Source: Anseongella ginsenosidimutans (lineage in GTDB: Bacteria; Bacteroidota; Bacteroidia; Sphingobacteriales; Sphingobacteriaceae). Taken from it: a stretch of DNA of 64,000 bases. The translations under genes were made by a program, and so were the position numbers. The stretch covers positions 3,410,001 through 3,474,000 of the forward strand of contig NZ_CP042432.1 of NCBI RefSeq assembly GCF_008033235.1, in the 5' to 3' direction. The notes below the pieces were generated by a model. That model saw only the letters and a list, made by a program, of their open reading frames with translations. It searched no databases and was not told the DNA's origin. Shown here piece by piece: positions 41,398 to 58,814 of the stretch. Every line of letters starts with the position of its first letter. Within the stretch, counting starts at the first letter, position 1.

Positions 41398-41398
41398 G

Positions 41399-41482
41399 TA
41401 CCCAGGGCCGGGCTCGAACCGGCACGGGTGTTACCCCATTGGTGTTTGAGACCAACGCGTCTACCAATTCCGCCACCTGGGC
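41399..41482 (-). tRNA. tRNA-Leu (anticodon CAA)
   Basis: Read on the minus strand the sequence starts GCCCAGGTGGCGGAATTGG and folds as a class II tRNA. The acceptor arm GCCCAGG pairs with CCTGGGT; the D-arm contains GGTAGACGC; the anticodon stem TTGGT/ACCAA closes the loop CTCAAAC with anticodon CAA; a long variable arm (TGGGGTAACACCC) is present; and the T-arm is CCGGTTCGAGCCCGG. The long variable arm and the CAA anticodon (UUG codon) identify leucine. CCA is not encoded. The first pair is G-T, which is slightly unusual. Confidence 0.95.
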
Positions 41483-54371: not shown

Positions 54372-55280
54372 ATGACAGAAAAACCCACATTATTGATTTT
54401 GGCGGCCGGAATGGGCAGCCGGTATGGAGGCATTAAGCAGTTGGATGAGTTTGGCCCTAACGGGGAAACCATTATCGACTATTCCTTATACGATGCGATA
54501 AAGGCCGGCTTTGGGCGCATTGTTTTTATTGTTCGAAAGGATATAAAAGAAGCTGCCCGCGAGTTGTTTGAGCCGAAGCTGGCCGGGAGGATCGAAGTGG
54601 ATTTCGCCCTGCAGGAGCTGGATTCCTTCGTACCCAAGGAGTTGGGTGCAGTAGAGCGCAGTAAGCCCTGGGGTACAGCGCATGCTGTCCTTTGTGCAAA
54701 GGATCATATCAAAACACCGTTTGCCGTGATCAACGCGGATGATTTTTACGGATACGATGCCTTTGAAAAGTCGGCGCACTTTCTTTCGACCAATCCCGAT
54801 CCTAATACCCATGCGGTAGTGGGTTACCGGCTGGAGAACACCTTGTCCGACTTCGGAACGGTATCACGCGGCGTTTGCGAAGCCAATGCACAGGGAGAAC
54901 TGGTCGATATCAATGAACGCACCAAGGTTGGTCGTGAAAACGGGAGTATTTATTATCAGGACAACGAAGGTAATAAGGTAGAACTTGCGCCCTCTACTCC
55001 AGTTTCGATGAACTTCTGGGCTTTCAAGCCGACAATTTTTGACCAGAGCCTGAAATTGTTTGAAGCTTATGCCAGGGAAAACATGAATTCGCCTAAGGCG
55101 GAATTCTTTATTCCCATCGTCGTGAGTCATATTACTGCTAACGGCCCGGGTAAGGTAAAGGTATTCGAAAGCGACGCCAAATGGTTCGGAGTTACCTACC
55201 AGGAGGATAAACCGGTTGTAAAAGAATCATTGAGAAAACTCATTGCCGAAGGGAAATATCCTGAAAAGCTATGGGCCTGA
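54372..55280 (+). CDS. Sugar-phosphate nucleotidyltransferase family protein
   Basis: A 302-residue Rossmann-type NTP transferase. The nucleotide-binding signature LILAAGMGSRYGGIKQLDEF lies at residues 8-27 and the metal aspartate at VINADDFYG near residue 118; the active-site region FPGL-like segment is VSMNFWAFKPTIFDQ. It overlaps the following kinase gene by 10 bases. The pair probably converts a free sugar to its 1-phosphate and then to an NDP-sugar. The exact sugar is not evident. Confidence 0.82.
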   Translation: MTEKPTLLILAAGMGSRYGGIKQLDEFGPNGETIIDYSLYDAIKAGFGRIVFIVRKDIKEAARELFEPKLAGRIEVDFALQELDSFVPKELGAVERSKPWGTAHAVLCAKDHIKTPFAVINADDFYGYDAFEKSAHFLSTNPDPNTHAVVGYRLENTLSDFGTVSRGVCEANAQGELVDINERTKVGRENGSIYYQDNEGNKVELAPSTPVSMNFWAFKPTIFDQSLKLFEAYARENMNSPKAEFFIPIVVSHITANGPGKVKVFESDAKWFGVTYQEDKPVVKESLRKLIAEGKYPEKLWA

Positions 55281-56353
55281 ACCAGGTTTTAGATGGTTTC
55301 GGGCTGGAGGATGCAAGCTGGGAATGCGTTGAATTCGGCTCCGGCCACATTAACAATACGTACCGGCTAACCCGGAAACAAACGGGGGAAAACCTGCTTC
55401 TGCAGCGCATCAACCATTTCGTATTTAAGGAGCCGGAAGCGATTGCGGGCAATATGCGGATAGCTGCCGATCACCTTGAAGCAACGGATCCTGATTACCT
55501 GTTCCTGAACGCAGTAAAAACAAAAGAAGGAAAAGACCTTTGGTATGATGAAGAGGGTTTTCCATGGCGCATCCTACCCTTCATTGACAATGCTTACAGC
55601 ATGGATGAAGTGGGGGAAGCCGGACAAGCCCGCTCGGCCGCCCGCCAGTTTGCGATACTGACCAGGAAACTCGCGGGTTTGGACGCTTCGTTGCTAAAGC
55701 CGACTATTCCTGATTTTCATAACCTGGAGCTGCGGTACCGGCAGTTCAGGGAAGCCCTCGAAACGGCCGGCGAAAACCGAAAAAAAGAGGCTTCCGGCGA
55801 GATTGGACAATGCAGTAACCGGGCGCACCTGGCCGAAGAATACAGCCGGCTGATCGTTCATCCCGGCTGCAAGCTCCGCATCATGCATCATGACACCAAG
55901 ATCAATAATGTCTTGTTTGACGTTGAAAGCGGGGAAGCCAAATGCCCGATTGACCTGGATACCCTTATGCCCGGCTATATTTTTTCAGATTTGGGAGACA
56001 TGGTCCGCACCTATGTGTCGCCAGTTTCGGAAGAAGAAACAGACTTGTCCAAAGTAGCCGTCCGGGACGAATTTTATGAAGCGCTGTATGATGGCTATCT
56101 TTCCGAAATGGCCGCAGAACTCAGCGATTTCGAAAAGCAGCATCTTTCTTTTTCCGGGAAAATGCTGCTATATATGCAGGCCCTTCGTTTCTTAACCGAT
56201 TACCTGCAGGGTGATGTTTATTATAAGATCCATTACCCGGGACAGAATCTTGACCGCAGCCGCAATCAACTTAAACTATTACTTGAGCTGGAAAAGAAAG
56301 AAGTAAGTCATATACAGCTTATTGAACGTTTGCTGAAGAAATATAGGGAATAA
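55271..56353 (+). CDS. APH-family sugar kinase (NahK-like)
   Basis: A 360-residue phosphotransferase of the aminoglycoside/choline kinase fold. N-lobe residues include FGSGHINNTYRLTRK and LLLQRINHFVFKEP; the catalytic loop is IMHHDTKINNVLFD with catalytic Asp, and the metal motif is PIDLDTLMPGYIFSDLGDMVR. These match N-acetylhexosamine 1-kinases (NahK), which phosphorylate GlcNAc/GalNAc at C1. The gene overlaps the nucleotidyltransferase gene, which supports a sugar-salvage pair. The 3' end overlaps the convergent LacZ-like gene by 35 bases. Confidence 0.82.
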   Translation: MGLNQVLDGFGLEDASWECVEFGSGHINNTYRLTRKQTGENLLLQRINHFVFKEPEAIAGNMRIAADHLEATDPDYLFLNAVKTKEGKDLWYDEEGFPWRILPFIDNAYSMDEVGEAGQARSAARQFAILTRKLAGLDASLLKPTIPDFHNLELRYRQFREALETAGENRKKEASGEIGQCSNRAHLAEEYSRLIVHPGCKLRIMHHDTKINNVLFDVESGEAKCPIDLDTLMPGYIFSDLGDMVRTYVSPVSEEETDLSKVAVRDEFYEALYDGYLSEMAAELSDFEKQHLSFSGKMLLYMQALRFLTDYLQGDVYYKIHYPGQNLDRSRNQLKLLLELEKKEVSHIQLIERLLKKYRE

Positions 56354-58814
56354 TACGGTAGGTGAAATTCCGGGATTTAAATGGAAGCGCCTGCTGAGCC
56401 AGGTCTACGCTAAGCAGTACCGGGCCGTCACCGGCGCCTTCCCGCGCAGCGGTTAAATTAAGCAACTGGTTTTCTTTCCGGATAAGCAGCCCATAGCCAT
56501 CTTCCCGGCTAAGCCGGACCCAGCGGACATCTCTTTTATCACTTCCCGTATTCGCGCTGATAGGCCCGGAATAAATGCCTATTTCATTTTGCGCAGCCGG
56601 CTCCCTTCCATACCATTCCATCTCCCGGTAATCACCGGGTAACCTGAAGCTGGTACCGAACCCCGGCATGAGCGGATAATCTCCCTGCATCCTTACAAAA
56701 ACATTTTCTACCAGTATCGCCCCGCGGCCGTCCACCCGGAACTTCTGAAACAGCCTGGCATCTCCACCAAGAAGCACCTTCGTAAAGGAAATATAATAAT
56801 TCCCGTTCACATCTTCCGTGACCTTATAATCGATAATATTGCCCTTATCCGCAGCTTCATTCCAAAGTGTATGGCTTTCCTTCAGGGAGTCCTGCGGAAC
56901 CAGCAGCTTCCGGAAATTCAGCTCGGGGCCTTCATTCATAAGTTCCCTTCCCTTATAACTATAACGGCTGATCTGACCCTTCCCCTTGTCAAAAACGATC
57001 CGGAAATCATAGCCGTTCAATACGATGGATCCCGGATCATCGGTCACGTCAATCATTCCCTTATCCACCTGGTATTCTTCTTCGTAATGATAAGGACCTA
57101 ACCGGAACTGGCGGGAAGCAACGGTAAAATCAGGCGGAACCAGGGAGTCGCCTGTTTTGGTTTTCAGCCGGAGATTAAGAAAATAATCATTTCCTTCATA
57201 GAACCGCATTTTATACCCCAGGGAAAGCCCGGTTTCCTGCCCGGATGCTACCGGAAGTTGCTCCACACGGCCTTCTTCCGCTTTCTTCCCGTTGCGGAGT
57301 ATCTCCCATTGCAGGTAATAACCAGAGAGGTCGCGGAATGCAAAGTGGTTCCGTACCCCGATAGTCCCCTTCAGAAAATCAGCCAGCAAGAGGTCCACCA
57401 CCGGCTTCCCGGCTTCGGGAAGACGCTCCTTTTGCGAAAGGGAAATGATGGAAGGATTATTCTTATTTCCGTGGACGCGCTTATCCAGCACATATACCCC
57501 ATACAGATTGCATAGCCTGTACCAGGAGGGATAAGTAAAGTAAGAAGAAGCATAAACAGCGTTGAAATTTCCCTGTTTGATCTCACGGATATCCTGCATC
57601 AACTGCTCCCTGTCCATTGAAAAGAGCGGTCTGGGGCCGGGTTTGAATACCCGGAGCGGTACAGGCACGCCGTTCACATGCAGCATTTCTTCTTCGACCT
57701 CAACTGTCCTGAAACCAACCTGCTGGGATACTACCTCAAGTACCTGGCCCGCGCCGTCAAGCAATGTGATATTCAGCCGGTAGCAATAAGGTGTTTCATG
57801 TGACCAGGGCTTTACGTCATCGACCGTTCCCTCGAAATGAAAAGCCATGCGGTCGCCCCCGCGAATTTTATAGGTATTATCTTTCCTGAAGTCTATTATT
57901 TCATTTCCTTCATCGTCCACAAGTTGTGCGTTTACAGTTGCCTCGGAATAGATCGGCTCGCGGAGTACGCCCCAAAAACGTTCTTTCACCGAATCCATCC
58001 GGTTCTCTACCCGGATATCCAATTCCAGCAAGCCTTTCCGCCTATTTTTGTCAAGGCTCCCGGTAAGGCCAATGCCTTGAAAATGCATTTCAGGCCGGGA
58101 ATAAAGCATTCCTTTTACCATACCGGACAGCAAGTCCTGCACCAGGGTTGTTCCCGCGCCGACCCCCTGCCCCCGGCCCAGCGCGAGTTCCAGGGCCAGT
58201 AAATTCTCTCCCGGCTGCAGGAAAGGCGTGATATTGAATTCCGCTTTCGGCGAACCCGCCGCTGTCTGTCCTACCCGATGTCCGTTTACCCAAATGGCAG
58301 TCGCTGTATGCATGCCTGGAGAAATAAACAGTTGCTTTTCGGCCCAAATTTCGTCCAGATTGATCTTCTTCCGGAATAAAATAACTTCCGCGCGCTCATC
58401 CCGGCTTGCAGCGGCGGTGGAACGGTCTTTATTGCCCGCGGCGCCGATGGCCTTGTTTTCACTTGTCCGGATTTCTCCGTTTTCAGTTGCCCGGGATTCT
58501 CCGGGAATCTTCACCGTTTCCCACGAAGCATCGTCAAACTCCGGGGTATAGAAACCGGGGGAAAAACGCTTTGCATCGGTTGAAAACTTCCAGGGGCCTT
58601 CCAGGGAAATAGTTCGTTCGGAAGCAGCCGGATTAGCCGCAATTGCTTTATCAAGGCTTTCATAGGGAAAGTACCATGTTCCGGGCCCGTCAGGAGCCTG
58701 TTCCGTTTCCGCGTTCCCGCTGTTTTCCCTGCTAAGAACCTGTCCCTTCAGGTTAAACTGGAAGACAATGAGTGCGCAGAAAACGAATAATTTCAAGGTT
58801 ACTTTATCAGGCAT
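56319..58814 (-). CDS. Secreted LacZ-type GH2 protein lacking the catalytic TIM barrel (pseudoenzyme)
   Basis: An 831-residue protein with a signal peptide (LKLFVFCALIVFQFNLKG). It follows LacZ order: a sugar-binding jelly roll (about 65-250, ending in ALELALGRG), an Ig-like domain (255-375), a vestigial barrel (380-480), an Ig-like domain (485-590) and the Bgal_small C-terminal domain (600-825). In the barrel region it keeps the MDREQLMQDIREIKQGNFNA and WYRLCNLYGVYVLD segments, then ends at NNPSIISLSQKERL where LacZ has SLGNE, and resumes at the next domain. The ANIE/GNE acid-base and nucleophile motifs are absent. About 200 residues are missing compared with LacZ. The protein stays in frame, so a non-catalytic sugar-binding role is plausible. 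Confidence 0.85.
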   Translation of the reverse strand: MPDKVTLKLFVFCALIVFQFNLKGQVLSRENSGNAETEQAPDGPGTWYFPYESLDKAIAANPAASERTISLEGPWKFSTDAKRFSPGFYTPEFDDASWETVKIPGESRATENGEIRTSENKAIGAAGNKDRSTAAASRDERAEVILFRKKINLDEIWAEKQLFISPGMHTATAIWVNGHRVGQTAAGSPKAEFNITPFLQPGENLLALELALGRGQGVGAGTTLVQDLLSGMVKGMLYSRPEMHFQGIGLTGSLDKNRRKGLLELDIRVENRMDSVKERFWGVLREPIYSEATVNAQLVDDEGNEIIDFRKDNTYKIRGGDRMAFHFEGTVDDVKPWSHETPYCYRLNITLLDGAGQVLEVVSQQVGFRTVEVEEEMLHVNGVPVPLRVFKPGPRPLFSMDREQLMQDIREIKQGNFNAVYASSYFTYPSWYRLCNLYGVYVLDKRVHGNKNNPSIISLSQKERLPEAGKPVVDLLLADFLKGTIGVRNHFAFRDLSGYYLQWEILRNGKKAEEGRVEQLPVASGQETGLSLGYKMRFYEGNDYFLNLRLKTKTGDSLVPPDFTVASRQFRLGPYHYEEEYQVDKGMIDVTDDPGSIVLNGYDFRIVFDKGKGQISRYSYKGRELMNEGPELNFRKLLVPQDSLKESHTLWNEAADKGNIIDYKVTEDVNGNYYISFTKVLLGGDARLFQKFRVDGRGAILVENVFVRMQGDYPLMPGFGTSFRLPGDYREMEWYGREPAAQNEIGIYSGPISANTGSDKRDVRWVRLSREDGYGLLIRKENQLLNLTAAREGAGDGPVLLSVDLAQQALPFKSRNFTYRIIPYISSANVQ

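Follow-up and report, generated by a model that had tools for sequence, protein, structure and literature searches.

The analysed window, a 64,000-nucleotide stretch of the Anseongella ginsenosidimutans genome, contains an open reading frame whose product descends from a LacZ-type GH2 β-galactosidase and has lost most of the catalytic barrel. The protein is a pseudoenzyme of long standing, confined to one genus in the genomes sampled and maintained by purifying selection. Our preferred reading, which we consider probable, is that of an exported LacZ-type GH2 protein in which β-galactosidase activity has been permanently lost and whose β domains have been turned over to putative non-catalytic binding.

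The gene (56319-58814, minus strand) begins with ATG and runs as one uninterrupted reading frame of 831 codons for amino acids (Table 1). Pfam searches gave matches above the cut-off to four families, Glyco_hydro_2_N (residues 70-209), Glyco_hydro_2 (291-369), LacZ_4 (487-572) and Bgal_small_N (601-785), in the order found in LacZ. Domains 1, 2, 4 and 5 thus lie in a single frame, in agreement with the first-pass annotation, which had described in-frame β domains on both sides of the barrel. The best PDB matches are LacZ β-galactosidases, in two blocks flanking the barrel; for Thermotoga 6s6z, significant similarity covers residues 66-446 and 465-740. The domain order 1, 2, (3), 4, 5 is common to the protein and the LacZ-type GH2 enzymes (E. 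coli LacZ; Bacteroides 3bga; Thermotoga 6s6z and 6sd0). Neither Pfam nor a profile of 17 LacZs revealed the complete (β/α)8 barrel of a LacZ-type enzyme: the Pfam barrel model is matched only at positions 32-78 of 302 (residues 399-445), and the highest-scoring NCBIfam LacZ model reaches 292 bits, below the 999 set as the cut-off for a full-length LacZ. Read by eye, the N-terminus MPDKVTLKLFVFCALIVFQFNLKGQ resembles a type I signal peptide, which makes the earlier description of the protein as secreted plausible and suggests that it is exported.

Table 1. Features of the LacZ-derived gene (positions in the window; residues of the 831-aa product).
Feature	Position	Strand	Basis
LacZ-derived pseudoenzyme gene, whole ORF (831 aa)	56319..58814	-	ORF, Pfam, PDB and LacZ-profile comparisons
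Putative N-terminal signal peptide without lipobox Cys, residues 1-25	58740..58814	-	Read from sequence; similar N-terminus in orthologue
Domain 1, jelly roll (GH2 N-terminal domain), residues about 64-210	58185..58625	-	Pfam, LacZ alignment
Domain 2, Ig-like, residues about 245-369	57708..58082	-	Pfam, LacZ profile
Enlarged domain-2 loop NRMDSVKERFWGVLREPIYS, residues 271-290	57945..58004	-	Orthologue and LacZ alignments
Barrel remnant, residues about 376-475	57390..57689	-	Pfam, profile, shuffle test; secondary structure from low-confidence model
Relic of LacZ strand β4, residues 445-460, running up to the former LGNE position	57435..57482	-	Profile scans against shuffles
Domain 4 (LacZ_4), residues about 480-574	57093..57377	-	Pfam, alignments
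Domain 5 (Bgal_small_N), residues about 590-790	56445..57047	-	Pfam, alignments

Alignment of the protein and its congeneric orthologue with 16 LacZ-type proteins of Bacteroidota relatives and E. coli LacZ showed how much of the barrel is left. The profile of these 17 LacZs aligns with residues 21-445 and its model then jumps from position 428 to 638, during which the protein moves only from residue 445 to 476, so that about 30 residues stand for some 210 profile positions. The main point of the first-pass annotation, a shortened LacZ barrel at 57375-57671 (exactly residues 382-480), is therefore upheld, with about 100 residues in place of a barrel of roughly 290. The remnant comprises β1-α1-β2-α2-β3 and a relic of β4: residues 445-460, KRVHGNKNNPSIISLS (RKGRANPNHPSVVRLP in the orthologue), match LacZ 442-457, RMVQRDRNHPSVIIWS, and in ungapped profile scans none of 300 residue-order shuffles reached the observed score at each of five window lengths. 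Judging by these scans, the approximately 30 residues between 445 and 476 are no random linker and contain what reads as a degenerate β4 strand. ANIE and the helix after it (about LacZ 415-441) are missing, and so is the rest of the barrel immediately beyond Glu461 up to the start of domain 4, including the nucleophile strand. The ANIE segment had been read as DKRVHG; because KRVHGNKNNPSIISLS and RKGRANPNHPSVVRLP match LacZ 442-457, that reading is a misalignment, and ANIE is deleted. The LGNE segment and the nucleophile strand had both been thought gone, which is correct for the strand but too simple for the LGNE segment, whose position reads QKER in the window protein and ADEP in the orthologue.

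Loss of the active site is extensive. In E. coli LacZ numbering, H357 is replaced by F, H391 by S, N460 by E and E461 by R (window) or P (orthologue), and E416, H418, Y503, E537, H540, W568, F601, N604 and W999 have no counterpart. Both proteins have thereby lost the acid/base Glu461 and the nucleophile Glu537, together with the metal and substrate residues H357, H391, E416, H418, Y503, H540, W568 and W999; every LacZ compared retains the catalytic and metal-site positions intact. E463, displaced by a single position from the former acid/base site, is kept in both proteins. Unlike LacZ, then, the protein is without the catalytic, metal and galactose-binding residues of the barrel, and the loss extends past it: in domain 5 the ENYxDR, PYxRPQE and W999 loops are all deleted, and in domain 1 the loop with N102 is degenerate and the D201 loop is degraded, and lost in the orthologue. 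Near-invariant LacZ columns are kept in domain 4 (7/7), domain 2 (8/12), domain 1 (13/34), domain 5 (10/22) and the barrel (15/65), a pattern that points to a fold preserved and an active site abandoned. PDB comparison, alignment and profile show a protein that is homologous to an enzyme yet lacks its catalytic residues, the hallmark of a pseudoenzyme.

From six alignment rows AlphaFold gave a weak model of the whole protein (mean pLDDT 58.5, pTM 0.36), with a well-predicted stretch in domain 5 (about 90 pLDDT at residues 591-630). The low-confidence remnant is predicted to form helices at 402-414 and 429-438 and strands at 441-444 and 456-458, which fits the first β-α units of the barrel; this model and one of the remnant and domain 4 only (pLDDT 47) are too weak to settle the fold of the remnant. 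In a Foldseek search of the PDB the top matches are all LacZ, with low TM-scores that reflect the poorly modelled domain arrangement.

The first-pass annotation had proposed a search for orthologues with the same shortened barrel, and had named full barrels in close relatives as evidence against it. The one other Anseongella genome examined carries the short form: an orthologue of 840 aa (59% identity) with an identical junction and a matching locus, which shares agmatinase and YchF on one side and an APH-type kinase and a nucleotidyltransferase on the other. In this two-sequence comparison, identity is 76% in domain 4, 73% in domain 5, 51% in domain 2 and 46% in domain 1; the neighbouring genes, at 80-92%, are more constrained than the pseudoenzyme gene. 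Differences at the three codon positions are 0.32/0.20/0.56. Gene-wide dN is 0.31 and dS about 1.9-2.1, and the resulting dN/dS of about 0.15, approximate since dS is saturated, lies below 1, the value that had been suggested as a check on function. We mainly used the gene-wide ratio because saturation defeated NG86 in domains 1 and 2 and YN00 in every gene. The short form is under purifying selection, which is strongest in domains 4 and 5 (dN 0.16-0.18). In a tree, the two Anseongella proteins form one clade (100/100) whose stem is 2.06 changes per site long and whose tips measure 0.31 and 0.39, and the long stem therefore places loss of the enzyme well before the two species split.

Within the sample, the short form is restricted to the genus Anseongella. 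In samples of 401 family genomes and 396 phylum genomes, a junction profile spanning residues 330-620 runs through without a break only in the two Anseongella genomes and only in the source genome, respectively; every other match listed is interrupted at the barrel, and almost all of these lie in frames of about 1030-1230 aa. The profile found no independent barrel-less relatives in these two samples, although it is a poor detector of independently made deletions. Among the Bgal_small_N proteins of 198 class genomes none matches it in both size and architecture, and the source genome has no second Bgal_small_N protein and so no full-length LacZ. A different kind of truncation occurs in another Sphingobacteriaceae genome (1052-3706 of L069), whose LacZ of 885 aa has an intact barrel and a shortened C-terminus. 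No barrel-less LacZ pseudoenzyme was found in the open-access literature.

On these comparisons, the protein most likely has a non-catalytic binding role. The barrel has been cut to its first three β-α units and a strand-4 relic, and the catalytic glutamates, Mg-site residues and active-site loops of domains 1 and 5 are lost or replaced; the β-sandwich domains would fold around the short remnant, and the protein would act as a non-catalytic binder in the periplasm or at the cell surface. Binding may occur through domains 4 and 5 and the conserved domain-2 loop, with a glycan or a protein partner as candidate ligand. The loop NRMDSVKERFWGVLREPIYS, which includes FWGVLREPIYS, is identical to the orthologue at 19 of 20 residues, its equivalent in the nearest LacZs is shorter and dissimilar, and we regard it as a candidate functional surface. 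That the ligand is a sugar is something we infer: the active-site pocket in which LacZ binds galactose no longer exists, so a sugar could bind only elsewhere on the β domains, and no glycan-binding-site motif was identified in the protein. We propose tentatively, at slightly less than an even chance, that it represents a new non-enzymatic secreted family, so far of one genus, in which a five-domain β-galactosidase minus most of its barrel uses its β domains as a binding scaffold round a β-α remnant.

A decaying pseudogene, or a normal lacZ affected by recent deletion or misassembly and open by chance, might also be considered, given the large internal deletions, a rate of evolution above that of the neighbours, the lack of a paralogue and a functional context that is not clear. 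This is very unlikely: the source genome is a single complete contig of 4.32 Mb, the congener genome, an independent one, has this deletion too, at 59% identity, which led us to reject misassembly or recent deletion, and neutral simulation over 0.3 to 1.2 changes per site predicts 18-35 stop codons where none is observed. The intact frame, the shared junction and locus, the dN/dS of about 0.15 and the change or absence of all tested barrel active-site residues support a pseudoenzyme rather than a decayed gene, as the first-pass annotation had concluded. It is improbable, to a somewhat lesser degree, that the protein is an enzyme acting on a different substrate through a new active site on the remnant or domain 5, built from other carboxylates or histidines. 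In its favour, a large number of charged residues do not differ between the two proteins, domains 4 and 5 are under the strongest selection, and E463 persists beside the former acid/base; against this, invariance between two sequences singles out no site, Pfam and NCBIfam recognised no motif of another enzyme family, and the nucleophile strand is absent.

A more serious competitor to glycan binding, itself a sub-case of the binding role, is that the protein serves as a structural or regulatory subunit whose partner is a second secreted protein, such as another glycoside hydrolase, and not a sugar. The high conservation of the enlarged domain-2 loop favours it, as does the fact that LacZ β domains make tetramer interfaces in known structures, but the neighbours tested include no co-located glycoside hydrolase or SusC/SusD genes, and we consider this version rather unlikely. 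Under the broader reading of a non-catalytic binder, the protein resembles pseudo-glycosidases such as the chitinase-like lectins, the xylanase inhibitor XIP-I (GH18) and 4F2hc (GH13), which likewise lost catalytic residues and were retained by selection, some as binders. In known pseudo-glycosidases the barrel usually persists and a few residues are lost, and these examples retain the whole TIM barrel, whereas here the barrel is dismantled and the accessory β domains are conserved. In the split LacL/LacM β-galactosidase the Bgal_small domain can be a separate unit, and LacL, with a full barrel, pairs with LacM; in the present protein, by contrast, the β domains are on one chain, and the genome encodes no LacZ-type five-domain partner. 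Selection kept this protein after most of the barrel had gone, which makes it a natural test of how much of a TIM barrel can be removed with the domains around it still folding and working. Automated annotation of such a protein as 'beta-galactosidase' would be wrong.

The gene stands alone among general or housekeeping genes, and its context therefore gives no hint of a substrate; a promoter and terminator scan gave nothing above chance bearing on it. Its 3' end shares 35 bp with that of the convergent APH-family kinase gene (56319-56353), and a similar overlap occurs in the congener (8492-8523 of L031). The kinase gene, APH-type and sugar kinase-like, itself overlaps a nucleotidyltransferase gene by 10 bp (54372-56353, plus strand), a pair that is kept in the congener and may be a sugar-1-phosphate kinase and pyrophosphorylase salvage pair; the kinase has matches of 34-46% identity in many relatives. 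The sole Rfam match within the window is a tRNA-Leu (caa) at 41398-41482 on the minus strand.
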